Virus record (IMG/VR): IMGVR_UViG_3300038701_001310
Coordinates: 1-21,614 of that record
DNA length: 21,614 bases
DNA from: a virus
Reading direction: 5' to 3' (one strand)
The first letter of the stretch is position 1; each line of letters begins with the position of its first letter. Both the position numbers and the translations under genes were made by a program. A model generated the notes under the pieces. It ran no database searches and was not told the origin of the DNA. It was given only the letters and a program-made list of their open reading frames with translations. Below are positions 1 through 20,601 of the stretch, one piece after another.

Positions 1-435
1 AGAACTGAAGGTGTATCTTATTCAACAGGCAGATCTGTTCTGGTTGAAGATCGGGATATGTATCGGTGTTTCCAACAATTCTTGATTGATCGTGCGATGC
101 TGCCTGTGTTTCACAAATGGGTACGGATGATCAGTATGGTGTCAGACGTTATCCCGCCCAGTAGGGTTGAGGTGATAGAAGATGCCGTCAAGTATCGACC
201 AAGAGGATGGGATTGGATCGATCCTTCCAAAGAAGTCAGTGCCAACGCAGAAGCCCTTGAGACACGTCAAACCAGTTATTCGCGCGTTGCCGCAGCACGC
301 GGTTTAGACCGAGACGAACTGTTTGATGAAATAGAGGATGACTTGCAAGCAATGGCGGATCGGGGCATAGCTCCGAAGGAAAAAGTGCCAGAAATGCCCA
401 AGATGCCCGGGCTACCCGATCCAGACGAGGAATAA
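1..435 (+). CDS. Portal protein, lambda family, C-terminal part (5' end outside window)
   Basis: The reading frame is open from base 1, so only the last 144 residues are visible. The portal forms the dodecameric ring at the capsid vertex through which DNA is packaged and the tail attaches. Visible segments that match the end of lambda-type portals are GVSYSTGRS near the window edge, the region MYRCFQQFLIDRAMLPVF, and the block W.WIDPSKE..AN..AL ending in T..SRVAAARGLD, where this family usually has a ..T....A..G.D motif. The last 25 residues are acidic and proline rich, with MPKMPGLPDPDEE at the end; this MPG motif recurs in other proteins here. The gene ends four bases before the protease-capsid start, consistent with one operon. 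Portal identity is well supported by pattern and position; the role of the tail peptide is unknown. Confidence 0.85.
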   Translation, partial: RTEGVSYSTGRSVLVEDRDMYRCFQQFLIDRAMLPVFHKWVRMISMVSDVIPPSRVEVIEDAVKYRPRGWDWIDPSKEVSANAEALETRQTSYSRVAAARGLDRDELFDEIEDDLQAMADRGIAPKEKVPEMPKMPGLPDPDEE

Positions 436-439
436 GACA

Positions 440-2296
440 ATGACTAAAGCTATTCTTTCGCAAAGGAAAGATCAAAGCAACGTCAGCAGCAGGTTAGATT
501 CCTGTAAAAGCTCTGTTCGTGCCAAGCAGAACGGCAATCTTGTGGTCCCGGTTTCTTCGGAACTGGCCGTGAAGACATGGCGCGGTAATGAAATTTTGCT
601 GCACGACTCAAAAGCTGTTGACCTTGACTTCATTGCCAGTGGCAACGCGCCCCTCTTGTACATGCACAACAGGTATGAACAGATTGGCGTGATTGAAAAT
701 GCTTATCTGGAAGGAAAGCGCCTGTACGCAGAAATTCGTTTCTCGAATAATCCGCGTGCGCAAGAAATTCGTCAAGATGTTGAAGATGGGATCGTTACCA
801 ACGTTTCCATTGGTTATCGGATTGACGAATACAAAACCTCTGATGATTCCGATGATTATGAGGTAACCCGATGGACGCCACATGAAGTGTCGTTCGTTTC
901 CATTCCGGCTGATAAAACAGTCGGCGTTGGCCGTAACTTACAGGAGAACACTATGGCCCAGATGCCCGGTCTCGAAGAAGATCAGGAGACGGACGAACAG
1001 CGTTCGGAACGTCTTGAGAAAGAAATCAATGAAATCAATGCTCTTGCTACAGAGCATAACATGAGCGACGTTGCCCGCTCGTACATCAAGGGCCAGCTTG
1101 AGCGCGGCGATGAGCCAAAACTTGCTGTATTCCGGGGCATCGCACGTTCAAAGTTGCCGGAGGATACTCCTCTCAAGGCGACTGATATCGGCATGACCGA
1201 TCAAGAACAGAAGCGTTTTTCTGTTGTCTCGGTTATGCGAGCACTCGCTGACGGTGACTGGAAGGGTGCTGAGTTTGAACGTGAGGCCATGAACGCTGCC
1301 GAAGAAAGCTCGGAACGTGGCACTCAACACGGTGGTGTGTTGTTCCCTACGGACATCATGAACCGTTGGGGTGATTTTGACATTGACGGTAATTCTTATC
1401 GCACACATGCCAATTCAAATCAGATGGGAGCCGCACTTGATGGCATCCGTGCCGCGCTCGCCACTTCGGGCAACGCAAACATTCTGACAACTGATCACCT
1501 TCAGGCGCGCTTTATTGATAACTTGCGCAATGCCTCATCTGTTCTTCGGGCAGGTGTGACCATGTTGCCGGGTCTCGACAGTGATGTCGAAATTCCCGGT
1601 GGTGATCAGAACATCGCCGCCGCGTGGTTGGCTTCGGAAGATGCGAACGTTGCGGAGAGTAACCCAACCTTCCGCAAAGTCACCTTGTCTCCTAAAGATC
1701 TTGGTGCGTTCACTGACATGACCCGCCGGATGCTTCAGCAATCGACAATCGCCCTTGAGGCGTATGTTCGGATGCAGATGATTGACGCACTTCGGATTGC
1801 CATTGATTTGGCCGGACTTTACGGCACCGGAGCTAACGGTCAGCCGGAAGGTATCGCCAACACAACCGGCATTGGTAGTGTGACTTTCGATGATGCTGGT
1901 TTTACCCCATATCCTTCTCGGGATGAGATCATTGATCTGCGTACATCGATTGCCGACACAAACCGTGGCCGTGGGGTTACCCATATTGGTAACTCTGACA
2001 TGGTTGGTGCTTTGCAGAAGACGAAAGTTGATGCTGGTTCCGGCGTGTTCCTGATGGGCGACAGCGCTGACCGTCTGGTTGGTAACCCGTTCATCGAATC
2101 CAATCAGGTTGTTGACGGAGATCTCTTCACGGGCGTCTGGGTGGATCTCATGCTTGGTATGTGGGGTGGCATTGAACTTGCACGTTCTACAGAAGCCAAG
2201 TTCCTCTCTGGTGGTATTCGCTACCGGGTCATCCAAACGGTTGATTACGCGGTTTCGCGTGTCGGTTCGTTTGCTCTGGGTAACGACGGTTCTTAA
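440..2296 (+). CDS. Prohead protease fused to HK97-fold major capsid protein
   Basis: A 618-residue fusion. Residues 30-170 form a prohead protease of the U35 family: His76 in LLYMHNR and Ser123 in TNVSIGY are the likely catalytic pair, and the family's ending PHEVSFVSIPADKTVGVGR lies at 147-165. Residues 172-300 are charged and helical, like the scaffold (delta) segment that is cleaved away. From about residue 300 to the end is the HK97-type shell domain, with blocks such as VLFPTDIMNRW, ALRIAIDLAGLYGTGANGQ and PEGIANTTGI. The protease would cut the scaffold inside the prohead. A strong internal start at 953 would allow a separate 447-residue scaffold-capsid product, expected to be needed because hundreds of shell subunits are required. 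An MPGLEED motif begins the scaffold part. A terminator follows at 2320. Fusions of these two genes occur in other phages. Confidence 0.9.
   Translation: MTKAILSQRKDQSNVSSRLDSCKSSVRAKQNGNLVVPVSSELAVKTWRGNEILLHDSKAVDLDFIASGNAPLLYMHNRYEQIGVIENAYLEGKRLYAEIRFSNNPRAQEIRQDVEDGIVTNVSIGYRIDEYKTSDDSDDYEVTRWTPHEVSFVSIPADKTVGVGRNLQENTMAQMPGLEEDQETDEQRSERLEKEINEINALATEHNMSDVARSYIKGQLERGDEPKLAVFRGIARSKLPEDTPLKATDIGMTDQEQKRFSVVSVMRALADGDWKGAEFEREAMNAAEESSERGTQHGGVLFPTDIMNRWGDFDIDGNSYRTHANSNQMGAALDGIRAALATSGNANILTTDHLQARFIDNLRNASSVLRAGVTMLPGLDSDVEIPGGDQNIAAAWLASEDANVAESNPTFRKVTLSPKDLGAFTDMTRRMLQQSTIALEAYVRMQMIDALRIAIDLAGLYGTGANGQPEGIANTTGIGSVTFDDAGFTPYPSRDEIIDLRTSIADTNRGRGVTHIGNSDMVGALQKTKVDAGSGVFLMGDSADRLVGNPFIESNQVVDGDLFTGVWVDLMLGMWGGIELARSTEAKFLSGGIRYRVIQTVDYAVSRVGSFALGNDGS
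942..955 (+). promoter_or_regulatory. Internal ribosome binding site and start for capsid without protease
   Basis: AGGAG at 942-946 is followed by six bases and then an in-frame ATG at 953-955, codon 172 of the fusion. This is the ideal spacing. It sits exactly at the junction where the protease domain ends (VGVGRNLQEN) and the scaffold segment begins (MAQMPGLEED). Initiation here would give a 447-residue scaffold-capsid protein ending at 2296. The position at a domain boundary makes chance less likely, but use of the site is inferred. Confidence 0.65.
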
Positions 2297-2319
2297 CTCT
2301 TAATCGAGTTACCCTACCT

Positions 2320-2358
2320 GACCGTGTACGGCGTTAATTTCGTACACGGTCTTTTCTT
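2320..2358 (+). terminator. Rho-independent terminator after the capsid gene
   Basis: GACCGTGTACG at 2320-2330 and its perfect complement CGTACACGGTC at 2341-2351 form an 11 bp stem with a 10-base loop. It is followed by TTTTCTT at 2352-2358. It lies 23 bases after the capsid stop, inside an operon whose next gene starts at 2381. It probably ends a share of transcripts so that capsid mRNA exceeds that of the downstream tail genes. Confidence 0.85.
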
Positions 2359-2380
2359 CAGCAATATAAGGTAAACCAAA

Positions 2381-2695
2381 ATGGCTATCGATGTGAAAAC
2401 CGGGGAAGACCCCAAGCTCAAAAACGTCCGCGCTCTGCATCAGATTGTTGTAGCAGGCACGGTTGTTGTTGTCGGTCAGGTGATGACAAAATCTGACTTC
2501 CCAACCAAGTCAGCATATCTCAATCTTCTTCACATGAACAAACCTCGCCTTGAGGAAACCAACGACGCACCGGGCCTTTATGAGAAGGTTGGTGGTGAGT
2601 GGAAGAAGCCCGCACCCGCCAAAGCTCCTGCCAAAGCTCCTGCCAAAGCTCCTGCCAAAGGCAAGGGTGGCAAGATGCCGGGTGCTGAAGACTGA
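2381..2695 (+). CDS. Small head-associated protein with Lys/Ala/Pro tail (function unknown)
   Basis: A 104-residue protein in the position that lambda uses for gpFI, between the capsid and head-joining genes. Residues 1-75 look like a small folded beta-rich domain (VRALHQIVVAGTVVVVGQV, then YLNLLHMNKPRLEE). Residues 78-95 are four PAKA-type repeats encoded by a 12-base tandem repeat, and the protein ends GGKMPGAED. A flexible basic tail beside capsid genes would suit contact with DNA or with other head proteins, but this is inference. AAGGT at 2368-2372 provides the ribosome binding site. It follows the terminator, so it is expressed by readthrough or from an unseen promoter. I do not recognise a named family. 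Confidence 0.7.
   Translation: MAIDVKTGEDPKLKNVRALHQIVVAGTVVVVGQVMTKSDFPTKSAYLNLLHMNKPRLEETNDAPGLYEKVGGEWKKPAPAKAPAKAPAKAPAKGKGGKMPGAED
2612..2659 (+). repeat. 12-base tandem repeat, four copies, encoding PAKA units
   Basis: One diverged copy GCACCCGCCAAA (2612-2623) is followed by three identical copies of GCTCCTGCCAAA (2624-2659). It is in frame and adds four residues per unit to the small head protein. The identity of the copies suggests recent expansion by slippage. Confidence 0.9.
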
Positions 2696-2697
2696 TC

Positions 2698-3012
2698 ATG
2701 CCAGCATCATTCATCACTGATGATCTTGATGTAATCCTCGGTTCCTCAGATTTTGGGGAACCGAGTGGTTCCGTTGTGTGGCAAGGCACAACCGTAACCG
2801 TGGCCATATTTGATCAGGAAGATGTTCAGGCGGAACTCGGCGAAGGTACAGGTCAGATTGTAAACTCACTCAAGATAACCGGAAAGTCTTCTGATTTTGA
2901 CGGCATCGCTGATGGCGATTCTCTCAGAGTTAGAAGTGTGACGTACACGGTTAAGCACTGGTTAGATGACGGTGAAGGTGTCATCGAAATATACTTGGCG
3001 GATGAAAACTGA
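2698..3012 (+). CDS. Head-tail joining protein, gpFII-like candidate
   Basis: A 104-residue acidic protein. Its layout resembles phage head-tail attachment proteins of the lambda gpFII type (Phage_attach family): an opening DDLDVILGSSDFGEPSGSVV, then a GTTVTVAIFD strand, a variable middle, and the closing G-D-S-L-R-V...YTVKHWLDDGEG...IYLADEN. These sit on the portal/connector and present the surface to which the finished tail binds. Its place just after the capsid genes and before the tail terminator and tube matches the lambda order. It starts two bases after the previous stop, and its TGA shares a base with the next ATG, implying translational coupling. The family call is from pattern and position. 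Confidence 0.6.
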   Translation: MPASFITDDLDVILGSSDFGEPSGSVVWQGTTVTVAIFDQEDVQAELGEGTGQIVNSLKITGKSSDFDGIADGDSLRVRSVTYTVKHWLDDGEGVIEIYLADEN

Positions 3013-3470
3013 TGGTTCATGTACGTACACAGATAAGAACTCTTGCCAAACAGGCGCTTGAGGCCGAGTTAGATCCACTGGTTTACACGGTGTTTTCATC
3101 TCGTACATACAGAAGAAACACCTCTTCGGGGAAAGCACTTGTAGACATACAGTTTACGAACGATCAGCAACAAGAACCGGCGACACAAGGTTCTGATAGA
3201 GATCACGTTGCCAGCCTTTATGTTCGTGTGCAGCGATACGGGCATGAAAATGAAATTGACGATCAGTTGGACCAAGATGAACTGAACGTTGTTGCGGCAC
3301 TCAACACCGTTGACTGGTCTAACATACTGGAAATGACCGAGCGACTAGAGCCGTTGCAGGTTAATTTTGCAGATGACGAATCGGGTGCAGAGATTATCGC
3401 TGCTCTGATAATAAGGTTTGATCTGGACTACAGGATTGACCTTGATAACCCTGAAACCCCGCTGGAATAG
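3012..3470 (+). CDS. Tail terminator / tail completion protein candidate
   Basis: A 152-residue protein with an opening helix (VHVRTQIRTLAKQALEAEL), then beta-rich segments (LVDIQFTND, ASLYVRVQRYG), an acidic DELNVVAALNT helix, and a final strand ALIIRFDLDYRID. This alpha/beta plan and its location directly before the tail tube gene fit the tail terminator group (lambda gpU or gpZ position), which caps the tube and joins it to the head. The start overlaps the preceding stop by one base (TGATG). No catalytic motif is visible. An alternative is another neck component such as a gpZ analogue. Confidence 0.55.
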   Translation: MVHVRTQIRTLAKQALEAELDPLVYTVFSSRTYRRNTSSGKALVDIQFTNDQQQEPATQGSDRDHVASLYVRVQRYGHENEIDDQLDQDELNVVAALNTVDWSNILEMTERLEPLQVNFADDESGAEIIAALIIRFDLDYRIDLDNPETPLE

Positions 3471-3479
3471 GAGATAATC

Positions 3480-3875
3480 ATGGCACGGGTGAGTGGACAC
3501 AAAGGTTTTGCTGAAGTCGGCGCCAATGAAATTGGTGAGCGTATCAGCTTTGAACTTGAAACATCTGTGAACGAACTTGAAGGTTCTACACAGGGCAATG
3601 ACTGGACAGATACAGACCCGGGGCAACTCAGTGCTTCCGGCACCATTGAAGTTTACTATGACTATACCGATGCTGGTCAAACGGCTATGGTTGTAGGTGC
3701 AACTGTTGCACTGAAGCTCTACCCTGCCAGCAAGACCGACACCCTTGAAGAAATCAGCGGTAACTTTCTGGTGACTTCCAAAAGCCAACCCGTCCCTGTT
3801 GGTGATAACGTAAAGGTTACTTACGGTATCAAAAACAAAGGGACAATCACCAGCGCTGCTTACAGTAGCCCATAA
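3480..3875 (+). CDS. Major tail tube protein
   Basis: A 131-residue protein with the features of siphophage tube subunits: GTIEVYYDYTDAGQTAMVVGATVALKLYP in the middle (residues about 57-86), followed by EEISGNFLVTSKSQPVPVGDNV and a final KNKGTITSA. Subunits stack as hexameric rings around the tape measure protein to form the DNA channel. AGGAG nine bases upstream of the ATG is one of the best ribosome binding sites of the operon, as expected for an abundant protein. It precedes the frameshifted chaperone pair and tape measure gene, the canonical order. Confidence 0.85.
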   Translation: MARVSGHKGFAEVGANEIGERISFELETSVNELEGSTQGNDWTDTDPGQLSASGTIEVYYDYTDAGQTAMVVGATVALKLYPASKTDTLEEISGNFLVTSKSQPVPVGDNVKVTYGIKNKGTITSAAYSSP

Positions 3876-3889
3876 CACGGAGTAAAAGA

Positions 3890-4255
3890 ATGACTGATAT
3901 TGATGCACTTCTCAGGGAGGAAGTTGGTTCTGTAGTTGGTACAAAAACCATTATGGAACTCGGCGGTGAAGACGTGGAAATGTTTGGCTCGCCACTCACA
4001 ACAGCCGATATCGAAAATGTACGAAAATCTTGGCCTGATTTCACAACGAACCCTTCCCCGGGCGGAATGGTTCATCTGATCATCAAACGAGCCAAAGACA
4101 CAAACGGAAATGCGGTGTTCAAGCAAAATCACCGAATGTTCCTTGAAAAACTACCAATCGAAAAGATTGTCACCGCGTTCAATGATCTGTTCGGTGAACA
4201 CCTCGATGAGCTAAATCTCGATGAGGATGACCTGACTGAAAAAAAGTCAAGCTGA
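3890..4255 (+). CDS. Tail assembly chaperone, short form (gpG-like)
   Basis: A 121-residue protein ending DDLTEKKSS. It lies between the tube and tape measure genes and ends on a slippery site, the hallmark of the lambda G/GT pair. The segment MELGGEDVEMFGSPLTTADIENVRKSW is followed by a region naming a folded N-terminal domain shared with the long form. Such chaperones bind the tape measure protein and recruit tube subunits; they are absent from the virion. GGAG upstream of the ATG provides the ribosome binding site. Sequence similarity to a named family was not established; the call rests on position plus the frameshift. Confidence 0.85.
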   Translation: MTDIDALLREEVGSVVGTKTIMELGGEDVEMFGSPLTTADIENVRKSWPDFTTNPSPGGMVHLIIKRAKDTNGNAVFKQNHRMFLEKLPIEKIVTAFNDLFGEHLDELNLDEDDLTEKKSS

Positions 4256-4401
4256 GGTCGAATGAATACACTCTGGTTTGTTGGCAAATTGCATATGCCT
4301 TCGGCCTAGATATACATTCCGTTCTCAGATGGCCTATCTCAAGAGTAAACGAGTGCTTGGCATTTTTTGCAATCAGAGCAGAGGATAAAGATAACGGATG
4401 A
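3890..4401 (+). CDS. Tail assembly chaperone, long form by -1 frameshift (gpGT-like)
   Basis: Ribosomes that slip back one base on A AAA AAG (4240-4246) continue from 4246 in the -1 frame, which stays open to TGA at 4399-4401. The product is about 170 residues: 119 from the short form plus 51 new. The extension contains YTLVCWQIAYAFGLDIHSVL and WPISRVNECLAFFAIRAEDK, a W..........E.LAF...R pattern typical of the T part of gpGT. The -1 frame has no good independent start, which supports frameshifting over a separate gene. Its stop overlaps the ATG of the tape measure gene (ATGA at 4398-4401). The long form is expected to be a minor product that tethers the tube protein to the tape measure. Confidence 0.85.
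4239..4246 (+). promoter_or_regulatory. Programmed -1 ribosomal frameshift site, A AAA AAG
   Basis: Seven A then G, with the zero-frame codons AAA (4241-4243) and AAG (4244-4246). This is exactly the efficient bacterial heptamer used by dnaX. The zero-frame stop follows three codons later at 4253. Inspection found no strong stimulatory stem directly downstream. Confidence 0.85.
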
Positions 4402-6419
4402 AGGGTGTAGTCTTCAACTTCAACGCTAGGAACCGTGCAGCACCAGCACAGGCTTCCTTTAACTCAGGCATGAAGAAAACCGAGACGCAGACCAGATCTG
4501 CGTCTCAGGCACTCAAGAACTTCACGTTGCGTGCCGCTGGCTTCAAGAAACAAATGCAGGGTGCCGAGATGGTCACGAACAAAGTGACCAGAGCAAACGG
4601 CTCAATGATGCGTGGTATGAGCATGAACCGGCGCGTCATTCAAGGCGTAGGTATGCAGGTGTCTGACTTCGCCGTACAGATGGCCGGTGGTCAAAACGCC
4701 ATACTTGCGTTCACTCAAAACGTACCGCAAGTTGTTCAAATGTTTGGCGCTTGGGGCGGCGTACTTGCCGGTTTGATCACCGTACTTGGTACACTGACTT
4801 TGGTTCTTTATAATTCCGGGGGTGCTATAAATGACCTCCTGCCCATGACTGGTGTACTGAGAAGTGATTTCGAAGCACTGGGCCGGATTGTAAATGACGT
4901 TAAAGAGATCTTCTTTGACTTCGCTAATTTGGTGGTCAACAACCTCGACGTAATACTCATATCCGTGACCATCCTTGGCACTTACATGGCTGGCAAATGG
5001 GTCTTCTCGTTCATTGCCGCCAAGGGTGCTGTGATGTCACTAGTTGGCGCACTGAACTTCCTTAAAGCCGCACTGATAAAGACAGGTATGGGTGCACTGA
5101 TCGTTCTTTTGGGCTATGCGGTTGAAAGGACACTGGCTCTGAAGCAACAGATAGGTGACACTGGACAAACCTTTGCGCTCTTGAGCGAGGTTGTTCGTGA
5201 AGCTCTTTCAAACATTCGTCAGTACCTTGAAGCTCTTTTGTATTTTAACAGTGGTGTCTGGTTGGCGATATTTTCAGTTGCCACGGACAAGCTCGCGGAT
5301 CTCGTGAACTGGACAAAAGATATCTTTCTTAACAAGATGATCGGCGCGTTCGTTGGGATGGGCGGTGTTATTGTCGGCATCTTTGAAGGTTTGTGGGTAG
5401 GGATACGGAACGCTTTCGCAGAGGGTTGGAACGCAACAGTAGATGCGCTGACAGGACCGATCAGTAAGTTTGAAGAAAAGATAGTTTCTTTGCGTCGTCG
5501 CCTCGGCATCAAGATAGACTATGAGCCGATGGACTTTAGTGGTGCAAAGATTGACATAAACGAAAGTGCTCAAATCGGCACGCGGATAAAAGAGAATTTT
5601 GAGAAGGCTTTCAATCAAGATTACATAGGTGATTTGGGACAGGATCTCAAAGGCATCTCTCAGGAAGCCGGGCGTGCGTCTGAGAACATGATGACGGCTG
5701 GTAACAATATAATTGAGGCTGTTGTCCAAGTCTCACCAAAACTTCGTGAACTGATGGAGCGAATGAGGGCTATTAAGGAAGAAAGCATAGACATACGAGA
5801 TGTATTTGGTTCGGGCAAAGAAGATGAAGAAGGTGGCGGTAAAGACAAAAAGGGCGGCGACCCCTTCGGGCTTGGTCAAATAATGCGCGGCATTAAAGAC
5901 ATGGTTTCTGAGGCCAAGAAGGCCGCAGAGGAAGTCATGTCGAAGTTTGAAGAAATGCAGAACGCTATAAGCCAGACGATGTTGCAATCCTTCAAGGGTG
6001 TACTGAGTGGTACAGAGAGTATCGGTGATGCTGCTATAAAGGTTCTCGATTCAATCATCGAAAAAACTATCGATCTACTCATGCAACCTATCTTCGATGA
6101 GATAGCCGGTAACATCTCAGGTAACATATTTAAGTCTGTAGGCGGCGGCATAAACGGCAGTGGCGGGTTTTTTCCGTCTTTCGACGGTGGTGGCTACACC
6201 GGCAAAGGTGTGAGGGCTGGTGGTCTGGACGGCAAGGGCGGTCGCATGGCTATCTTACACCCCAACGAGACCGTCACGGATCACAGCAAGGGTGACGGCA
6301 CCTCCGGTCCTACAACCGTGAACATCAACCTGAACGGTGTGACTGACTTTGAATCATTTGAAAAATCTCGCCGTCAACTCAAGGCTGAGGCCGCATTGCT
6401 AGCTAGGAGCGTAGGCTGA
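4398..6419 (+). CDS. Tail tape measure protein
   Basis: A 673-residue protein, the longest of the tail assembly section. It sets tail length, fills the tube and is released into the cell envelope at infection. Hydrophobic stretches lie at about 115-138, 184-209 and 211-242, as expected for membrane insertion. The middle (about 360-560) is helical and charged with a Gly/Lys/Asp linker (GKEDEEGGGKDKKGGD). The C-terminal FDGGGYTGKGVRAGG...GRMAILHPNETVTDH is the recognisable ending of many siphophage tape measures. Using the usual rule of about 0.15 nm per residue, the tail would be near 100 nm (an estimate). The start overlaps the stop of the frameshifted chaperone. The N-terminal MKGVVFNFNARNR is basic. 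Confidence 0.9.
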   Translation: MKGVVFNFNARNRAAPAQASFNSGMKKTETQTRSASQALKNFTLRAAGFKKQMQGAEMVTNKVTRANGSMMRGMSMNRRVIQGVGMQVSDFAVQMAGGQNAILAFTQNVPQVVQMFGAWGGVLAGLITVLGTLTLVLYNSGGAINDLLPMTGVLRSDFEALGRIVNDVKEIFFDFANLVVNNLDVILISVTILGTYMAGKWVFSFIAAKGAVMSLVGALNFLKAALIKTGMGALIVLLGYAVERTLALKQQIGDTGQTFALLSEVVREALSNIRQYLEALLYFNSGVWLAIFSVATDKLADLVNWTKDIFLNKMIGAFVGMGGVIVGIFEGLWVGIRNAFAEGWNATVDALTGPISKFEEKIVSLRRRLGIKIDYEPMDFSGAKIDINESAQIGTRIKENFEKAFNQDYIGDLGQDLKGISQEAGRASENMMTAGNNIIEAVVQVSPKLRELMERMRAIKEESIDIRDVFGSGKEDEEGGGKDKKGGDPFGLGQIMRGIKDMVSEAKKAAEEVMSKFEEMQNAISQTMLQSFKGVLSGTESIGDAAIKVLDSIIEKTIDLLMQPIFDEIAGNISGNIFKSVGGGINGSGGFFPSFDGGGYTGKGVRAGGLDGKGGRMAILHPNETVTDHSKGDGTSGPTTVNINLNGVTDFESFEKSRRQLKAEAALLARSVG

Positions 6420-7141
6420 TGTCGCAGATTGATCTTTTACTCCCTCTTACGGTTAGACCCGGCTTCATGGGTGCACCTACGTTCAACACCTCTGTTGTAC
6501 AACTTAGGGGCGGGGCGGAGTACAGAACATCTTTGTGGGCTAATCCCCTGAGAATGTACGAGGTTGGTTTTAATTCCCGTACAGCCGAAACCGTTATCGA
6601 TGAGCTGATAACCTTCATTCTTTTGACGAAAGGTTCTCTTTATACGTTCAGGATGCGTGACTGGTCAGACTATAAGGCCGATGAGACAATCCTTGGTGCC
6701 GGTGACGGGACAATCAATTACTTCCGGCTGTATAAGGATTATGATTCCTATCGCCGTAGAATTGTGTATCCTTCATTGGATAATATGAAGGTTTACTTGG
6801 ATTCAGATCTGGCAGACCCAGACAGCTACTTTATTGATCAAGATAACGGTACGGTAGTTTTTGCAACACCGCCCGCTTCTGGGGTTACAGTATCTTGGTC
6901 TGGCGAATTTTACGTGCCCGTCAGGTTTTCTGATGATTCAATGGACATCATCATGAGCTACAGCAAGTATGGGCATACTGGTAGCATTTCGATCAAAGAA
7001 GTGAGGACCAGAGAAAACATCTCGACTGATGTTTATGATGACATCATCGAAATAATCACAGTGTACGGCAGAGAAAGTTTGTCAGACTTCTTTGACGTGC
7101 TGGATATTCATATAAATGAGAAATGGAGACTGTCATGGTGA
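6419..7141 (+). CDS. Distal tail protein, DUF2460 family (GTA gp12-like)
   Basis: A 240-residue protein that caps the tube and starts the baseplate. The family pattern is clear: LYTFRMRDWSDYKADETILGAGDGTINYFRLYKDY (about residues 79-113), then a R.IVYPSLDNMKVYLD strand, the VDQ-like FIDQDNGTVVFATPPASGVTVSW block, and FYVPVRFSDDSMDI. In gene transfer agents this protein precedes the DUF2163 hub gene; here a tailspike gene lies between them. It begins with a one-base overlap (TGATG) and its end overlaps the tailspike gene by 7 or 19 bases depending on the start used. Confidence 0.9.
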   Translation: MSQIDLLLPLTVRPGFMGAPTFNTSVVQLRGGAEYRTSLWANPLRMYEVGFNSRTAETVIDELITFILLTKGSLYTFRMRDWSDYKADETILGAGDGTINYFRLYKDYDSYRRRIVYPSLDNMKVYLDSDLADPDSYFIDQDNGTVVFATPPASGVTVSWSGEFYVPVRFSDDSMDIIMSYSKYGHTGSISIKEVRTRENISTDVYDDIIEIITVYGRESLSDFFDVLDIHINEKWRLSW

Positions 7142-10100
7142 TATCACTCAGTGATCTGGAAACTAAAATCGGGGAAGCTGACGAAAACCTTGATCGTCTG
7201 AATGATGCGGTCAACGGAGCATCTGGTAACTTCACAGATAGTTCCGGTAATCCGGTTGCGAATCTGAACAAGAGATTGGAAGATGTTGGGTATCTTACGC
7301 CAGTTGATTTTGCCAGCGGTCTGAACGTCACTGACGCGTCTTTCACCGTCATCTACAATGAAGAGACGTACAACGCCAATCCGGCGAGTATTCCGTTCAT
7401 CACAACCGCCACATTTGATCCTAGTCAATGGGTGAGACCGGTAATCATCGAAGAAGCTGAAGCGGCTCGTGATGCTGCACAGGCTTCGGAGACGGCAGCT
7501 TCCGGGCATGAGACTGCCTCTGCCTCGAACGCCACCATTGCTTCTAATGCAGCTACAGTCGCCTCCGAAGCCGCTGGTTTTGATGAGGTTGAGGCTACTA
7601 AAGCCGCAGGTGACGCTGCCGCTTCCGGCTATGCTGATGGCGCTCTTGTTCTCATCATTACTGATGAAACGAGGGGCAACGCCTCAACAATCTATCGTGA
7701 AGATACCGATGCGCTGGTCTTTGTGCGATACTGGACAAGAGAGCGTATCCTTTACGTTGATTCAGTGAACGGTCTCGACACAAACGATGCTCTGACACCA
7801 AGCACCGCCGTACTTACCCTGAGTAAAGCGGTATCACTCATGAGAGACGGTGAGGTGTTGCGTCTGGTTGGCGGGTCCGGTTGGCGTGAGAAGTTGGACG
7901 TGTCGTCGCTGGAGGGTTGCGTCATTGAATGTACAGGAGGTGGAGCGAAACCTTGGATTTCGGCGCGTGATGTACAGTCTTCCTTTACGCAGGTTGGGTC
8001 AACTAGTGTTTACAAGTTTGATGTGACCTACCCGGCTGTAGATCCGCAAAGGGGTTATCCGGCAATCTTCGAAGACGGAGTGAGACTGGAAGAATATCTT
8101 GATACTGACTTGACGGCTACCGATGAGACGACCATCGGGGCTGAGTTACCAGCCGGTGCCTTTTTCTTTGCGGGTCCGGGTGATTACGATGCTGGTTGGT
8201 CCGCTGGCACAAAGACTTATTATGTCCGAGCGTCCGATAGCGGAAACCCGGCATCCAACGGTAAAACGTATGAGTTCCCCAACCGTGACTATGCTTTTGA
8301 GCCGGGCGCAAATCTTCTTCGGGACTTTAATTATGTCTACGGACTTTCTCACAATGGTTTGCCGAAGGGTCCGGCGAGTGGGCCTGCCGCTGAGTTAGTA
8401 AATCTTATGGGGTTTGACCCTGCCCGGCATGGTACGTTGCTGACTAATGCAGTTCTCACTGGGTGTTCCGTGGTCGGGCACAACCCCTTGAGGGGTGGTG
8501 GCAGTTTCCACTCTAACCCCGAAGCTCTTGCTCAAAATATCACTTGGCGTAACCTCAAGGCGATTGGTGGTCCACGTACAGCCTTAAATGCGGGACGACA
8601 AGCACATGGTTTTTATACTCACGGTGGCTTTGGTGGTCCTTCGATACGTGAGAAAACAACACTGATCGATTGCTACGGCGAAGGTGTTGCGAACCTGACT
8701 GAGTTTACAGATACAGACGAACTTGTTTGCATACGACTGAAGGGTAGAGATTGCGCAAGTTTGAACGGTGAGGACTCCGCCGACATTCAGACTTACTATG
8801 CTTTGGACTTCATCGGTGGCCTAGGGGTTGATGCGGTTTCTAGGCCAATTCTTTCGGCACCGGCCACTACGCACAAGTTTTTGGCGGGATCTTATGTTGA
8901 CGTGTTTGCGCAGCAACTTGTTTTTGGTAACACAGGCATCGGCAAAATCATTGCAGAAGACAGTACATTGATCATGAGACCGGCGGCAAAAGCTGGTAAC
9001 GAAGCGTATTTCTTTATTGCGAATGGGTCAACGGACATCGGTGAGATTGACATCAAGCGGTGTGTGCTGATTTGCGCCGGAGCAAAAGGCCTGGACGATT
9101 TTGTTCGTTGTGGTGTACTGACGACAATCAACGTTGACGAAACGTTGATCATTGGGAACCACAACGAAGATCCCGTTCTTCGCATTACTGGTGGCGATGT
9201 TGGTTTGAGTACAAGAAACGGCGCAGGCAACAGAGTTCTTCAGATCAGTGAAACCCGAGCCATTCAGCGAGCATCGGACGGCAAGTTGTCTATCAAACGA
9301 GGGGCTTACGAACCGGGTGCTGATATATACTTCGGTGCGGCATCTTCCCCGGGTGCCACACAACCTAGAACTAGCATCTTAGTCGGTGATAAAATCGCAC
9401 AACAGAACGCGTCGGTATCACCTAACGATAGTGCTTTTAGATTGGTGTACACACCAACCGAAATTCTTCGTGCTGTTGCATTTTGCGCCGACACAACAAC
9501 ATCAGACAGCAGGTTCATTGCTGTAGGTGACAATGGACTCATTCTGAGATCAACCAACAACGATGGGGACGATTGGGAGGTTGTCGGTGCCGGGATTACT
9601 TCTGAAGACTTGTTGGCGGTACATTCCGCCGGTGCTGTTGATACTGGCGAGGTCGTTGCTGTTGGCACTAACGGCGCGGTTCTGTTGTCTACTGACTATG
9701 GCGCAACTTGGGCTACAGCCACTACACCCGGTACCACAAGAACGATGAGAGGTGTTGCGTCTGACGGAACGAGCTGGTTAGCGTGCGGAGACGAAGGCCG
9801 GGTCATCACATCATCAGACGGTGACGTTTGGGCAGAGACGACACAGGATTCTGACGTAAATTATTACGCAGCGTTCTATAGCACCCTTCTTTCGACATGG
9901 ATGATCGGTGGTGATGAGAACTCGACGGCAGATGCGGAACTTCGTACAAGCACTGATTTGTCAACTTGGACACAAAGGGCTGTAGGTACCAGAAATCGCA
10001 TTGTTGCTTTCGGTGAGAATGATACACTCGACACTCTGTTGATTGCTTTCTATCAAATTGAGCAAGATGACGCCACATTCGCTTATTCTGATGATGGTGC

Positions 10101-11240: not shown

Positions 11241-11671
11241 TGTCAGATGTTTCGGCCATAGCTAGGAAATGGATCGGTACCCCATATAAACATCAGCACG
11301 CTACGTTTCAGCGAGGTTGTGATTGTCTAGGTTTGGTCAGAGGTGTGTATAAAGATATTTTCGGTCAAGAACCAGAGATTCCACCACCTTATAGTCCAAC
11401 ATGGCGTGAGACCGGTAAAAAAGAGTTCATGTTAGATGCTGCCAGAAAACATCTGGTTGAGACTGATGAGATAAAACCGGGCGTGGTGCTGATGTTTCGC
11501 ATGGCCCCAAATGTCATCGTGAAGCATTGTGGAATAATGGTCACACATGATCGAATGGTGCACGCATACGCACGTTCTAGAAAAGTAATAGAGCATCCTT
11601 TGGTTGCTTATTGGAAAAACAAGATAGCAGGGCGGTTTGAATTTCCGTTGGTGAATCATGTCGGGGACTGA
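11240..11671 (+). CDS. NlpC/P60 cell wall peptidase of the tail tip (GTA gp14-like)
   Basis: A 143-residue cysteine peptidase expected to open peptidoglycan for DNA entry. Cys29 in RGCDCLGLVRGVY is the nucleophile in the family's D-C-x-G context; His96 in VIVKHCGIMV is the likely general base and His108 in RMVHAY the third polar residue. There is no signal peptide, as fits a virion component assembled into the tail tip. It lies between the two hub genes, the conserved GTA order, and overlaps the next gene by 14 bases. Confidence 0.9.
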   Translation: MSDVSAIARKWIGTPYKHQHATFQRGCDCLGLVRGVYKDIFGQEPEIPPPYSPTWRETGKKEFMLDAARKHLVETDEIKPGVVLMFRMAPNVIVKHCGIMVTHDRMVHAYARSRKVIEHPLVAYWKNKIAGRFEFPLVNHVGD

Positions 11672-16034: not shown

Positions 16035-16035
16035 C

Positions 16036-16485
16036 ATGCCAACCGATGTTCTAAAGTTACCACTTATCGCGGCTGATCAGGCACAAAAGCACGTCACCGC
16101 AAATGAAGCCACAGAGGCGCTTGATGACATCATCAGCACTTGGCAACAGTCTAGGTGGACCACGGGTACCATCGCTTCTGATGTTCTTACGCCTCTGTCC
16201 AGTAGCGTTCAGGTGCGGACAGAGGGCGCGGCATCTTCTGACGGCATCACGTCAATAGTTGTGCCTACACAGCCATATGACACAGGAAGTCCGGCGTCGA
16301 AGATAGATGGTGCGGAGATCACCCTGAAAGGCTTCGATGGTGAAACCGTGACCATCACTGCGGGATCTACCATAAAACTAGGCGCGGCCACCCGTGTACT
16401 GTCTAATGAATATGACACGCTAAGGCTGAAGTATCACGAAACCGACGATGTTTGGATTGAGATCGGCTTCACCACGATCAGTTAA
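16036..16485 (+). CDS. DUF2793-type tail protein
   Basis: A 149-residue protein. The opening LKLPLIAADQAQKHVTANEATEALDDI is the DUF2793 signature, found in alphaproteobacterial phage and GTA-like tail clusters next to the TIM-barrel gene. Residues 35-149 are a beta-rich domain. It may decorate or complete a fibre at the tail tip; the exact role is unknown. GGAG at 16026-16029 with six bases to the ATG. It is the last gene of the late operon, and its TAA overlaps the stop of the convergent gene. Confidence 0.85.
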   Translation: MPTDVLKLPLIAADQAQKHVTANEATEALDDIISTWQQSRWTTGTIASDVLTPLSSSVQVRTEGAASSDGITSIVVPTQPYDTGSPASKIDGAEITLKGFDGETVTITAGSTIKLGAATRVLSNEYDTLRLKYHETDDVWIEIGFTTIS

Positions 16486-16802
16486 TCAGGCTCAAGAGCT
16501 ATCTTGAGTGCCTGTAGCAATTCGTAAGTGATCTGAGAGGTGTAGGATTCAGATTTGAACACCGCACCTACCAAACCGTCTGTTATGGCCGCACTTGGAT
16601 CACCGAAGTCTTCCGAACATGCCTGTAAAAGTGACCTAGCGGCAATTTCAATTCTGTCAGATCTCGTGTGCCCGTTTGAATCTGGCCGTTCACAGCTAGG
16701 TGGATCTGGGTCATTTCTGTCCCAACGTTTTCCGCAGTATGAGCAAAAATACTCATCGCCTTCTACCCGGACTGTGGGGTGTTTCTTCTTTTCTAATGTC
16801 AT
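16482..16802 (-). CDS. Small Cys-rich, possibly zinc-binding protein
   Basis: A 106-residue protein. Residues 19-46 hold YFCSYCGKRWDRNDPDPPSC and a later His, a CxxC knuckle with further Cys/His that could bind one zinc ion. The remainder is helical (RIEIAARSLLQACSEDFG, SQITYELLQALKIALEPD). No named family is recognised. GAGGT at 16810-16814 (complement) gives a seven-base spacing to the ATG. It is the last gene of the leftward operon. A regulatory or host-interaction role is plausible but unproven. Confidence 0.7.
   Translation of the reverse strand: MTLEKKKHPTVRVEGDEYFCSYCGKRWDRNDPDPPSCERPDSNGHTRSDRIEIAARSLLQACSEDFGDPSAAITDGLVGAVFKSESYTSQITYELLQALKIALEPD
16488..16513. terminator. Possible hairpin at the convergent operon ends
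   Basis: CTCAAGA (16491-16497) and TCTTGAG (16502-16508) form a perfect 7 bp stem with loop GCTA. AGG/CCT can extend it past a two-base bulge. It lies between the two opposing operons, but neither strand has a U-run after it, so a terminator role is weakly supported. Confidence 0.35.
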
Positions 16803-16804
16803 GA

Positions 16805-16948
16805 TCAGTACCTCAAGTATGTGTAAGCCGCAGCAACGGCGAGTTGTAGGAACATAACCACCAAAACCAAAAATACCCCATTCATCGGATGACTCTTTCT
16901 CGACCGCATCCCCTTATGCAGTTGGGAAGGTTTGTACTTCTTCTTCAC
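16805..16948 (-). CDS. Small single-span membrane protein, 47 residues, GTG start
   Basis: The - strand reads GTG AAG AAG AAG TAC from 16948 to a TGA at 16805. The N-terminal part is strongly basic (MKKKYKPSQLHKGMRSRKSH) and residues 24-42 (VFLVLVVMFLQLAVAAAYT) form one hydrophobic span, ending YLRY. AGGA sits five bases before the GTG, which overlaps the preceding TAG by one base (TAGTG), a classic coupled start. The stop lies two bases before the next ATG. It fills an otherwise empty gap exactly. It resembles small phage membrane proteins of unknown role; a holin would usually be longer. Internal ATG starts at codons 14 and 22 are alternatives. Confidence 0.6.
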   Translation of the reverse strand: MKKKYKPSQLHKGMRSRKSHPMNGVFLVLVVMFLQLAVAAAYTYLRY

Positions 16949-17577
16949 TAGATTCCTGGCATCCTAGTAGACAAAGCACCCGGCATCGCGGGCTGTGACG
17001 GGGGGTCTCGATCTACGATATCGAGGCCGGGCATTATAGGTTGCAACGGAGGATCTCTATCAACCACACCAAGACCCGGCATCACGGGCGGTGAGGGGGG
17101 TGATTCTATGCCGGGCATTGTTGGCTCATCGTCACCGTGCAGTCTTCTGACAATAGCCCAAGAAAGAGCCTTGCGGATTGTGTCAGCGGTAGAGTTCAGG
17201 ATGACAGGGTACTTGGCCGTATTGTCGCCAAAACTTCCGATGATCGGACCCCTGAAGATCACTAGTCGATATTGATCCTTCATGGTTGCGGTGTATGTGG
17301 CGTTGGGGTTCGTCATAATGACGACACTGTGAACGTCACCTTCTTTTAGCACAGCATCCAGTTCACGGAATAACTCAGGATCATCGCCTTCACTGAACGG
17401 AACTTGCGAACGTCTAAGTATTTCACGAAAGACTTCGGTGACGTTATCTGCATGATAAACCAACGTCTCATCATCACGCTTATGATAACTCACGGTGAGA
17501 TGATCTCTTTCCCGATAGATAAACATCTTTGTACTGTGACGTACAAAAAACCCTTCAAGTGATTCAATCAATCGCAT
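16948..17577 (-). CDS. Unknown protein with repeated MPG tail
   Basis: A 209-residue protein. Residues 1-147 look like a compact alpha/beta domain (MFIYRERDHLTVSYHKRD, VHSVVIMTNPNATYTATM, YRLVIFRGPIIG, a final helix TIRKALSWAIVRRL). Residues 150-209 are disordered and carry five MPG motifs at 154, 166, 182, 198 and 206, with a 16-residue repeat (MPGLGVVDRDPPLQPI then MPGLDIVDRDPPSQPA), ending TRMPGI. The folded part is not recognised. It begins within the last 10 bases of the polymerase gene, so it is coupled to it and may act with it in replication. AGGAA lies nine bases upstream of the ATG. The same motif ends the ssDNA-binding protein and the portal. Confidence 0.8.
   Translation of the reverse strand: MRLIESLEGFFVRHSTKMFIYRERDHLTVSYHKRDDETLVYHADNVTEVFREILRRSQVPFSEGDDPELFRELDAVLKEGDVHSVVIMTNPNATYTATMKDQYRLVIFRGPIIGSFGDNTAKYPVILNSTADTIRKALSWAIVRRLHGDDEPTMPGIESPPSPPVMPGLGVVDRDPPLQPIMPGLDIVDRDPPSQPAMPGALSTRMPGI
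16969..17121 (-). repeat. Degenerate 16-residue repeats (48-base period) with MPG motifs
   Basis: Coding repeat at the C-terminus of the 209-residue protein. The two best units share VVDRDPP/IVDRDPP and MPGL. Codons for MPG vary between copies (cca gga, ccg ggc, ccc ggc, ccg ggt), which points to selection on the peptide rather than on DNA. Confidence 0.7.
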
Positions 17578-19463
17578 ACCAATAATTTCCTTGCTTCTTC
17601 GATGTAGTACAACCAGTTGACGTTATCCCAACGAAAATTCTCTATTTCGTTGGTGATGGTCACGGTCCAGCCCGCTTGAACGCTCATATGACGCTCCCCG
17701 GCTTCTCGTTTTTTAGGTAGTGGTGGCATAACTTTAGTCAGCGAGCTTCCGTCAGTGGACACATAATAACGTGTGGTGTTTTGTATTTGCTTATCACCAT
17801 GTATGAGTTTGCTAGTGCGAGGTATCTTTGCGGTGAGTTGGAAATCCCACGGATTTCTGTGTCTCATGATAAATTTGTCTACCGGTTCACCAGTAATATG
17901 AAAAGCCTCGGCGGCCTTTCGAGAAACCAGATTAGAATGATCTTTGTGCCACGGTAGTTCTCTAGTGTAGGGATCTTCATTGGCCGTGATGTAGGCGTAT
18001 GCACCGATTCTTTTGATTGACCCGTCATCCTTGACCGCAGCATAAGAATTAACGTCTCTGATGAACATTGATTTGTACCGTACACTCTCAAGTTCAAGAC
18101 CGGTGTAGTCCTCCCACATTTTGCATATGTGGTTCATATATTCTACGGCTTTTTTTCTGACCCTGACGGTAAGACCATCGGTATTCATTTGTATGAGTTG
18201 TATATCCGAGTACCTATTGTTCCCCTGATCATAAAGCAACCATTCGGCCAACATGCACAGAAATAGTTGCCCACTCAGGGTTATACTCATGGTGTACTGA
18301 GAATCATAGAAGATGCTGAAAGGTTGATTGCTATCACCGTACACACCGTTTAGTGCCAGTTTAAGCATGGCGTTTTCGGCAGTTTTCTTCGCGTAACCTT
18401 TTCGCATTTCGTACACTTCTTTGTAGATAGCGCAGAAATGTTCAGACAGATGAGCCGGGTAAAGGTTACCCGTGATTGCAAGGTTAGGATAATAGGACGC
18501 TACGTCCCAATCCCAAATTTCCCACTCATCATCTTCGTGCACGGCTGTTTTCTTGAGTGAGCCGTGAATACCGCCGGTTCCGAAGTGACAATCAAAACCA
18601 TCCACAGTAGCGATCAGTTTTTTGAATACACCCTTCGTTTCTACTATTTGCTGTTGTGATAGCCAAGAACGTACACGTTCAAATTCAGGATGCCGATATT
18701 TAATCTTCGGGCTGATACAGACACCAAGATTGATGGAACCTCTTATTGTTTGTTCGGGGTTCCGGTACTCATCATAACACTGAATACCGGCCTCAATCAA
18801 CTTCATCTCAAAGAACTTCTTACCGATCTTGGTGTCATTGAAGTTCAGTACATCACCCATCTTGGGATACTTTTCGGCCAACTCATCTCTAAAGTTGATC
18901 TGATCGATAGACTTCTTGTAAAAGTCTACAGTCTCCGCAACGTCCCGGCAGTTATATTTTATGACCTCGTTCATCTCATGGTCAGTGAGTAACTGGTCAG
19001 GCGGGTACGGAAGATCTTGTACCCTTTTGGATCTCATATTGATGGCAAGTTTTTTTAGACTGGTTGACTTGGCCATGTTATCAAAATGGTGGATGAGGAA
19101 CAAATCGCCCTGTGTGATTATCCTTTGCCTCGGCCAGAGGGTAAAAGCGTTTCGCTCTTGAGACTGAAAGATGGCCTGTGCGAGCGCATAGGCGTCTTCA
19201 GACCTGAACGTGCCTTGTTCTTCAAAAGCTAACAGGAGCCTTTGCACGATGGGCCAGTCAAAATGAATGTTGTTAAATCCAAAAAGTCTAGCACCCCGCT
19301 TTTCAAGTTCTCTAAGGAACCATGCTAGTTGTGCTGACTGATCTATCCTCGCCGACACTTCGAAGATCCATCGTGTGCCGGTTTCGATATGTACAAAGAC
19401 AACCGAAAACATGTTCTTGTACGTTTCGATGTCGTAGGCGTAATCTTTTGACAGATTGCTCAT
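17568..19463 (-). CDS. Family B DNA polymerase with 3'-5' exonuclease
   Basis: A 631-residue replicative polymerase. The exonuclease (1-180) has motif I YDIET (Asp11, Glu13), motif II FNNIHFD (Asp69) and motif III YNCRD (Tyr170, Asp174). The polymerase part has motif A DWDVASYYP (Asp320, Ser323, Tyr325), motif B KLALNGVYG (Lys368, Asn372, Tyr375) and motif C QMNTDG, where Asn427 replaces the usual first Asp of DTD while Asp429 is kept. It is compact for family B and shows no obvious protein-priming insertions. It should copy the phage genome together with the adjacent ssDNA-binding protein. The ATG at 19463 has AAGGG nine bases upstream. It overlaps the next gene by 10 bases. Confidence 0.88.
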   Translation of the reverse strand: MSNLSKDYAYDIETYKNMFSVVFVHIETGTRWIFEVSARIDQSAQLAWFLRELEKRGARLFGFNNIHFDWPIVQRLLLAFEEQGTFRSEDAYALAQAIFQSQERNAFTLWPRQRIITQGDLFLIHHFDNMAKSTSLKKLAINMRSKRVQDLPYPPDQLLTDHEMNEVIKYNCRDVAETVDFYKKSIDQINFRDELAEKYPKMGDVLNFNDTKIGKKFFEMKLIEAGIQCYDEYRNPEQTIRGSINLGVCISPKIKYRHPEFERVRSWLSQQQIVETKGVFKKLIATVDGFDCHFGTGGIHGSLKKTAVHEDDEWEIWDWDVASYYPNLAITGNLYPAHLSEHFCAIYKEVYEMRKGYAKKTAENAMLKLALNGVYGDSNQPFSIFYDSQYTMSITLSGQLFLCMLAEWLLYDQGNNRYSDIQLIQMNTDGLTVRVRKKAVEYMNHICKMWEDYTGLELESVRYKSMFIRDVNSYAAVKDDGSIKRIGAYAYITANEDPYTRELPWHKDHSNLVSRKAAEAFHITGEPVDKFIMRHRNPWDFQLTAKIPRTSKLIHGDKQIQNTTRYYVSTDGSSLTKVMPPLPKKREAGERHMSVQAGWTVTITNEIENFRWDNVNWLYYIEEARKLLVCD

Positions 19464-19521
19464 GTGAAATTGCCCTTTGCACCCTTGACCATTCTTTTTG
19501 CCAAAGTTCCTCGTCTGTCAT
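19312..19521 (-). CDS. Possible leader ORF overlapping the polymerase start
   Basis: A 69-codon frame beginning MTDEELWQKEWSRVQRAISH, with GAGGG five bases before its ATG, a better site than that of the polymerase. The first 20 residues look protein-like, but the rest lies in a shifted frame inside the polymerase gene and looks like out-of-frame sequence. It may be a short coupled leader or be untranslated. Its ribosome binding site lies inside a perfect inverted repeat, which hints at control. Confidence 0.25.
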   Translation of the reverse strand: MTDEELWQKEWSRVQRAISHEQSVKRLRLRHRNVQEHVFGCLCTYRNRHTMDLRSVGEDRSVSTTSMVP

Positions 19522-19562
19522 TTCACCCTCATATAGCTATCAGTTAACCATATGAGGGTGAA
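19522..19562 (-). promoter_or_regulatory. Perfect 13 bp hairpin covering a ribosome binding site upstream of the polymerase
   Basis: TTCACCCTCATAT (19522-19534) and ATATGAGGGTGAA (19550-19562) are perfect complements with a 15-base loop. On the leftward mRNA the second arm contains GAGGG and ends directly against the ATG at 19519-19521. The stem would hide that site. It starts 14 bases after the ssDNA-binding protein stop. There is no U-run, so it is unlikely to be an intrinsic terminator. It could balance ssDNA-binding protein against polymerase, protect the upstream mRNA end, or bind a regulator as duplex DNA. Confidence 0.75.
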
Positions 19563-19575
19563 TCTTTATGAAACG

Positions 19576-20601
19576 TTAAGTTCCGGGCATCCCGGGCATT
19601 GAAGGTCCACCAGCGGCACCCGGCATCCCTTGAGGTTGCCCTTGGGGTTGAACAGCACCCGGATTACCATGAAGGATCTGAGTATGTGGCTGAGCTTGTG
19701 GTTCAGTACCGGATACAGTCCCATGCTGTGCAGGCATAGACTGTACGGGTTGTGTATGGGCAGGTGCCTGATGCTGTTGGACCGGGGCACCTTGGGGGTT
19801 TCCCACAGGCATCCCTTGAGGTTGCCCTTGCGGCATAGCGCCCGGCATCCCTTGAGGTTGTCCTTGTGGCATAGCGCCCGGCATCCCTTGGTGTGAGACA
19901 GGTTGCTGCATGGCAGCTTGTCCAACAGGTTGTTGGGCACCACCGGGCATCCCCTGTTGTGCCGCAAGTGTTCCCACTGGTGTATGAGATGCACCGGGGG
20001 GTAGCACGGCCTGACGATCCGCAAAGGCATCAGAAGCCTTCTGGCCACCAGCAATGGCATCACCATAACCCAACAGACGAATGGCCACCGGGTTCATGTA
20101 GACACCGGCTGTATCATCCACGTTGCCGTTAGGTTGGCTGTTGAACTTCACTTCCATGAAGTCTCCGCGCTTGATGTCAGACAACGGAATTTCCTGATAC
20201 TCCCAATTACAAGCGCTGACCACGAAAGAAGTATTGAACTTGATGATCCAATGGCCCCTGATGTATTCAGGAGTTTCCTTCGGTTGCCCCTTGTCATCAT
20301 ATCGTTGGGCGTCACCGTCTTCGATTTTCCAAGCAAACTTATCTGCACCCAAGCCTTGGTTGATTTGTGCCATGACGGCAGGTGCGTGAGCATATCCCTG
20401 ACTGGCCATATTGAAGATAGCGTTGATCAAATCTGTCATCGCCGGGTCAGTTTTTGGCACAGCAAGTGCGTAATAGAAACGTTGCTTGTCTTCAGGGATT
20501 GGTTTGTTGTAGTAATCCTTATCTTGTTTTTCCGTAAGCGAACCGCTTACAAATCGCCCTGCGGGCGTAAACATGTTTTCCAATTTTACGGTAGCGTTCA
20601 C
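19576..20601 (-). CDS. Phage ssDNA-binding protein (DUF2815-like) with long low-complexity tail
   Basis: A 341-residue protein. Residues 1-185 form the DNA-binding domain: KLENMFTPAGRFVSGSL, RFYYALAVPKTDP, GHWIIKFNTSF, GDFMEVKFNSQPNGN and AGVYMNPVAIRLLGYGD resemble phage ssDNA-binding proteins of the DUF2815/gp2.5-like group (OB fold). Residues about 200-341 are a disordered tail rich in Gln, Pro, Gly and Met with 12-residue repeats (GMPGAMPQGQPQ) and six MPG motifs, ending SMPGMPGT. In other ssDNA-binding proteins such tails recruit partners; here the ending is not the usual acidic tip. The start is GTG at 20601 with AGGAG eight bases upstream. It lies between the nuclease/Acb2-like genes and the polymerase. 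Confidence 0.8.
   Translation of the reverse strand: MNATVKLENMFTPAGRFVSGSLTEKQDKDYYNKPIPEDKQRFYYALAVPKTDPAMTDLINAIFNMASQGYAHAPAVMAQINQGLGADKFAWKIEDGDAQRYDDKGQPKETPEYIRGHWIIKFNTSFVVSACNWEYQEIPLSDIKRGDFMEVKFNSQPNGNVDDTAGVYMNPVAIRLLGYGDAIAGGQKASDAFADRQAVLPPGASHTPVGTLAAQQGMPGGAQQPVGQAAMQQPVSHQGMPGAMPQGQPQGMPGAMPQGQPQGMPVGNPQGAPVQQHQAPAHTQPVQSMPAQHGTVSGTEPQAQPHTQILHGNPGAVQPQGQPQGMPGAAGGPSMPGMPGT
19808..19890 (-). repeat. 36-base tandem repeat in the ssDNA-binding protein tail
   Basis: Units begin at 19808, 19844 and 19880 (third partial), each starting GGCATCCCTTG on the + strand. Each adds 12 residues (GMPGAMPQGQPQ). A related single copy begins at 19622. Near identity of the units suggests recent duplication. 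Confidence 0.85.

Follow-up and report, generated by a model that had tools for sequence, protein, structure and literature searches.

Clamp-binding (PIP-box) peptides place one short motif on unrelated replication proteins, encapsulin cargo-loading peptides and the capsid-targeting sequences of phage T4 are short terminal tags that work together with a phage-type shell, and in the lambda C/Nu3 arrangement the scaffold is produced from an internal start within the protease gene. In bacteria, the single-stranded DNA-binding protein (SSB) ends in the SSB-Ct peptide (...DDDIPF), a short C-terminal element on a disordered tail. Among phage proteins, the C-terminal tail of T7 gp2.5 has been implicated in contacts with the polymerase and the primase-helicase, and Enc34 ORF6 and other T7-type SSBs carry an acidic C-terminal tail (PMC5686142). 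Here we describe a three-residue tag, [ML]PG, that is shared by unrelated replication and head proteins encoded in the IMG/VR virus record IMGVR_UViG_3300038701_001310 and in related phages. The window analyzed is the whole record (21,614 bases), which is likely a piece of a larger phage genome because genes run off both of its ends. A search of the available literature for an "MPG motif" or "LPG motif" in connection with phages, or for a tip shared by phage proteins, returned nothing.

The tag resembles SSB-Ct in being a short C-terminal peptide on a disordered SSB tail, for which docking of a partner would be the expected mode of action. However, [ML]PG is uncharged, lacks Phe and is found on many proteins other than SSB, including head proteins; instead of an acidic stretch ending with Pro-Phe at the extreme C-terminus, the window SSB terminates with SMPGMPGT. 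This protein (341 amino acids; positions 19576-20601, minus strand) belongs to the Gp2.5/Enc34-type family (PHROG 7011, 1.5e-57; Pfam Enc34_ssDNA-bd PF10991, below the cutoff), but the family resemblance does not extend to the tag: the tails of T7 gp2.5 and Enc34 are acidic, whereas the disordered tail of the window SSB is rich in Pro, Gly, Met and Gln and ends in [ML]PG. As with clamp-binding peptides, a short motif sits on unrelated replication proteins, but its sequence is different, no sliding clamp was identified as the partner, and its clients include capsid and terminase proteins. In contrast to the encapsulin and T4 tags, the shell proteins themselves are tagged, and the tag appears to follow the replication module, not the head.

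The window (7,023 residues) contains 14 copies of MPG in 5 proteins, all at the places given by the first-pass annotation, made from the sequence alone, and none in its other proteins. Six copies are located in the SSB tail (19942-19950, 19876-19884, 19840-19848, 19618-19626, 19591-19599 and 19582-19590, minus strand, spanning 19582-19950), the last two of which lie within the chain end. Five more (17110-17118, 17074-17082, 17026-17034, 16978-16986 and 16954-16962, minus strand, spanning 16954-17118) occupy the tail of a 209-residue protein encoded after the DNA polymerase gene (16948-17577, minus strand), where the last copy closes the chain (RMPGI). Single copies are found on the plus strand near the C-terminus of the portal protein (403-411), at the protease/scaffold junction of the capsid protein (962-970) and at the C-terminus of a small head protein (KMPGAED; 2675-2683). 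When each window protein was shuffled (2,000 trials), 0.73 copies were expected on average and at most 6 were obtained, in agreement with the claim that fewer than one would occur by chance. The corresponding own-shuffle means were 0.39 for the SSB tail and 0.13 for the tail of the 209-residue protein, and the three single copies have a joint P of about 0.009. The low-complexity, partly repeated SSB tails are what might be expected if the copies arose by compositional drift of Pro/Gly/Met-rich tails, supplemented by chance single copies. Nevertheless, the excess over permutations is order-specific, the motif is conserved in unrelated families and its sites were predicted in a new genome, so that this explanation is strongly disfavoured and, in our judgement, barely credible.

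To define the motif, we gathered relatives of the polymerase and capsid proteins from viral contigs and genomes; alignments were needed, as single-sequence scans with the capsid protein and the 209-residue protein recovered no relatives from viral contigs, and a scan of phage records with the latter was equally negative. Among 627 predicted C-terminal 12-mers, 38 contain [ML]PG (shuffle mean 4.5, maximum 12), whereas each of the other residue classes preceding PG occurs at most 4 times. Thus, the MPG of the first-pass annotation is real, but the unit under selection is [ML]PG rather than MPG alone. The description of all copies as lying at protein ends or in disordered parts is sharpened by a concentration just before the C-terminus, with 33 of the 38 tags located 1-3 residues before the chain end; the capsid copy is probably N-terminal in a nested product (see below). 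Since five different codons are used for Leu and four each for Pro and Gly, it is the peptide that is conserved, as had been proposed; this codon variation, including the replacement of Met by Leu with five different codons, rules out an explanation at the DNA or RNA level. By family, the C-terminal tag is present in 12 of 16 small head proteins, 8 of 13 SSBs and also in the proteins encoded after the polymerase gene, whereas about 30 other core families lack it, the exceptions being one unassigned family and the window portal. The portal copy, one in 16 portals and unique to the window, is probably incidental or lineage-specific, and the portal was dropped from the set of conserved members. 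The loss in close homologues that would have refuted the first-pass idea is thus seen for the portal, but not for the small head protein, the capsid protein, SSB or the family of the 209-residue protein. Overall, the tag is real and is broader than first described, extending to Leu, to more proteins and to other phages, but narrower with respect to the portal. It behaves as a shared short linear motif, being conserved in a variable, disordered context across unrelated families. Two LPG sites, TMLPGL at residue 376 within the capsid fold and RALRTLPGK of the helicase family, belong to folded regions and were left out of the tag counts, and the MPG at the N-terminus of some Hc1 proteins shows no conservation.

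Among the replication proteins, most SSB tails of the relatives, which are likewise rich in Pro, Gly and Met, contain or end in [ML]PG (e.g., GMPGM, LPGQR, MPGIGQ). The proteins encoded after the polymerase gene are only about 19-33% identical to the first aligned member, and the tag is among their most conserved columns. One of them, from contig G044 (see below), is predicted to adopt an α-β-β-β-α fold (mean predicted local distance difference test score 79), the best match of which, a modest one (E 0.005, template modelling score about 0.55), is the double-stranded RNA-binding domain (dsRBD) of yeast Rnt1p. A profile search of the PDB with this family yielded only spurious low-complexity matches (haemoglobin, designed repeats). 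The 209-residue protein aligns to the family over its second half with low identity and, on the basis of these alignments and the predicted fold of its relative, appears to be a divergent member of this dsRBD-like family. Outside these two families, [ML]PG is found in the linker of a replication protein encoded upstream of the nuclease gene (family 14) in 8 of 11 genomes and in 4 of 10 small terminases; in genome G017, LPGM closes two proteins, one Zn-ribbon-like and the other a homologue of GapR (Pfam PF10073, 8e-30). In a prophage with a known host, Sedimentitalea xiamensis, SSB ends in AGMPGM and the post-polymerase protein in RKMPGM.

The SSB tails contain a second conserved motif, PHTxIL-x-GP, shortly before the tip (about 19645-19690 on the minus strand of the window, and in relatives), with variants such as PHTQILHGN, PHTGILAGP and PHTAILTGP, and PAYPAIL in Agrobacterium phages. 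Phage-encoded GapR (DUF2312) homologues are present in G017 (19820-20110), G003, G006, G019 and G021, and several of them adjoin the SSB gene. In Agrobacterium phages 7-7-1, Milano and OLIVR4 (L328, L329 and L414), GapR has an extra tail, GIPMPS[GVA]KK, that resembles a variant of the tag.

The head proteins carry the tag in two places. The first is a fused S78-type prohead protease/scaffold/major capsid protein of 618 amino acids (440-2296, plus strand; PHROG 617 major head protein, 1e-111; Pfam Peptidase_S78 and Phage_capsid). In relatives about 50-60% identical to it, the linker between protease and scaffold is rich in indels and varies in length and sequence, yet Pro and Gly of the junction are invariant in a five-way alignment and are preceded by Met or Leu. 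Within the clade, [ML]PG is present at this junction in 16 of 19 capsid proteins, several of which have near-identical linkers, and is missing from G005, G020 and G021. A Shine-Dalgarno sequence (942-946) and an in-frame ATG (953-955), AGGAG-AACACT-ATG (942-955, plus strand), mark the probable nested start of the scaffold-capsid protein. The nested product would begin with MAQMPGLEEDQ, placing MPG at residue 4, three codons past the in-frame ATG. In every relative examined, the capsid linker opens with a Shine-Dalgarno-like sequence and an in-frame ATG, which precede the tag where one is present; in L155, the second half has its own open reading frame, which overlaps the first and begins at the nested-start Met, and in G005 the protease and scaffold-capsid halves are separate open reading frames. 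Because of this putative start and of the split halves in relatives, the capsid tag is probably located near the N-terminus of the main scaffold-capsid product. The arrangement is reminiscent of lambda C/Nu3 in that a scaffold start is nested in the protease gene, but in this case the scaffold forms part of a fusion with the capsid protein, and [ML]PG lies near the N-terminus of the nested product.

The second tagged head protein is the small protein of 104 amino acids encoded after the capsid gene (2381-2695, plus strand), a position conserved in the relatives. It consists of a folded N-terminal part, an Ala/Lys/Pro-rich linker and the tag; no family was matched in Pfam or PHROG, and no confident fold match was obtained. 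Despite widely differing linker lengths, [ML]P is conserved in all 16 aligned relatives and Gly in 14 of them. The first-pass annotation held that acidic residues follow the motif in head proteins, but this is not a rule, as small head proteins end in MPGAED, LPGAK, MPGVK or LPGGTT. In G020 (7697-8207), the small head protein is present as tandem copies, both without the tag, and the capsid junction tag is lost as well.

The tagging of the capsid junction and the small head protein, together with a protease encoded in the same fusion, could be taken to mean that [ML]PG is a processing site of the prohead protease, one of three meanings put forward by the first-pass annotation. The motif, however, is not confined to head proteins, being present in replication proteins such as SSB, GapR and a primase (see below), and its position 1-3 residues from the end in most proteins leaves no substantial piece to be removed. 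Moreover, the portal family lacks the tag, and the tag also occurs with an unrelated head. A processing site fits these data badly and is very improbable.

Comparison of phages that combine different modules indicates where the reader of the tag might be encoded. In Roseobacter phage CRP-811, the head families are those of the window clade, but the replication module is of another kind; none of the annotated CRP-811 proteins contains [ML]PG, and the SSB carries a classical SSB-Ct-type tip, DLDDDIPW. Similarly, the polymerase is missing from 15 contigs whose capsid proteins are more distantly related, and the capsid junctions and small head proteins of these contigs are untagged. Conversely, Sinorhizobium phage HMSP1-Susan couples a replication module of the window type to an unrelated head (PHROG 264 capsid), and its tagged proteins are SSB, the primase (YRMPGM) and a small protein encoded directly after the capsid gene; in Rhizobium phage RHph_TM3_3_9, SSB and GapR are tagged. 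Thus, the tag seems to go with the replication module and not with the head, and these patterns suggest that the receptor belongs to the replication module.

The same docking motif could also be read by a protein of the alphaproteobacterial host, such as a chaperone or a replication factor: tagged SSBs are found in phages of Rhizobium, Sinorhizobium and Sedimentitalea, and the SSBs of the Salmonella, Vibrio, Acinetobacter and Edwardsiella phages examined are untagged. Yet the host of CRP-811, a phage with no tag anywhere, is an alphaproteobacterial Roseobacter strain, and a search of 61 Rhodobacteraceae genomes found K[ML]PG[ML]-stop only in the prophage and in one 46-codon frame, with no host client of this form seen. 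We consider a host receptor unlikely.

The motif was also used to look for new members of the group. The pattern K-M-P-G-M-stop was run over 2.9 million viral contigs, where only about ten matches correspond to real in-frame ends; at least two of these, L376 and L402, come from this phage group, and L385 is a possible third. L402 was picked by the motif alone, and its contig, G044, turned out to be tagged at five predicted sites: SSB (three copies), the post-polymerase protein, family 14, the capsid junction (RQMPGV) and the small head protein (AVMPGATK). The post-polymerase site was found by the pattern itself, and the other four are independent of the search.

Phages with related polymerases have tips of their own. 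In the sister polymerase clade (about 43-49% identity; L074-L147), the SSBs, assigned by their position before the polymerase, have the ending GLP[SP]F[LFM]; of 59 nucleases, 48 terminate in [LIV]P[SPTA][FWY]. In a third clade (L010-L017 and L023), the ending is PSFA for SSB and either PSFF or ISFF for the nuclease. Judging from these sequences, sharing of a tip is a habit of this replication module, with the tips themselves being lineage-specific. Some of the sister-clade nuclease ends (DDIPSFL) resemble the host SSB-Ct. Three families, the polymerase, the nuclease and SSB, are common to the window clade and the majority of the sister clade. Because SSB carries a tip in both clades and the nuclease does so in the sister clade, the DNA polymerase (631 amino acids in the window; 17568-19463, minus strand; PHROG 1252, 7.5e-181), which is present in all tip-bearing groups and is never itself tipped, is by elimination possibly the receptor, and is the leading candidate.

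Collectively, we infer that [ML]PG, after which the chain typically ends with a hydrophobic or small residue, is probably a short linear docking motif for one shared receptor. In function it would be the equivalent of SSB-Ct or of a clamp-binding peptide, with a sequence of its own and with capsid proteins among its clients. Of the three meanings proposed initially, docking to a common partner is the best supported, in that the tag is shared by unrelated families and tracks the replication module; carriage of replication proteins into the prohead is a more speculative possibility. Under the docking model, unrelated replication and head-assembly proteins of this phage group would bind the same pocket via [ML]PG, and the receptor would most likely be sought in the replication module, among the polymerase, the DUF2800-type nuclease, SSB and the helicase. 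The tags on the N-terminus of the scaffold-capsid protein and on the small head protein could then bring proheads to the replication machinery, or draw the receptor to the prohead. More tentatively, a phage-encoded hub, possibly the DNA polymerase, might read one tag on replication factors, the small terminase, the scaffold-capsid protein and the small head protein, tethering prohead assembly or packaging to the replisome, with a lineage-specific tip for each polymerase.

The five or six copies in the disordered tails of the 209-residue protein and SSB, and the known or predicted nucleic acid binding of several clients, would also be compatible with a multivalent sticker, through which proteins would gather in a condensate or replication compartment instead of docking in one pocket. 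In many clients, however, there is just one copy, set at a constant distance from the C-terminus, an arrangement better suited to a pocket, and we regard the sticker as rather improbable. Several observations weigh against docking to a single receptor. The candidate receptor was arrived at by elimination; the nuclease of the window clade lacks the tip; head tags are lost in some genomes (G020) or altered in others, as in G021 (MPSG/LPSG), L153 (MPI) and G032 (MPA). The internal repeats of the Pro/Gly/Met-rich SSB tails may partly be drift, the contrast between swapped modules is partly confounded by descent as the tagged capsid proteins form one clade, and the gene calls on uncultured contigs were made in this analysis.

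Phage proteomes are seldom scanned for motifs common to unrelated proteins. In this case, three residues recur across the replication and head modules, stay within a clade and predict new tagged proteins from sequence. The tag also helps to find fast-evolving small families, such as the dsRBD-like post-polymerase proteins, in which it is better conserved than the rest of the chain. If the receptor is found, it would offer a direct handle on how small tailed phages couple replication, packaging and head assembly; the compact peptide-receptor pair could, moreover, be used as a tool.

With regard to the overall gene content of the window, the plus strand encodes the end of the portal protein, the fused protease/scaffold/capsid protein, the small head protein, and connector and tail proteins, and the minus strand encodes the DUF2800-type nuclease, a small protein with an Acb2/Tad1 hairpin, SSB, the DNA polymerase, the 209-residue protein and a protein of 106 amino acids. 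The Acb2/Tad1-like protein (61 amino acids; 20630-20815, minus strand) is encoded between the nuclease and SSB; its match is to the hairpin domain PF24729 (1.8e-9), whose family includes anti-CBASS nucleotide sponges.

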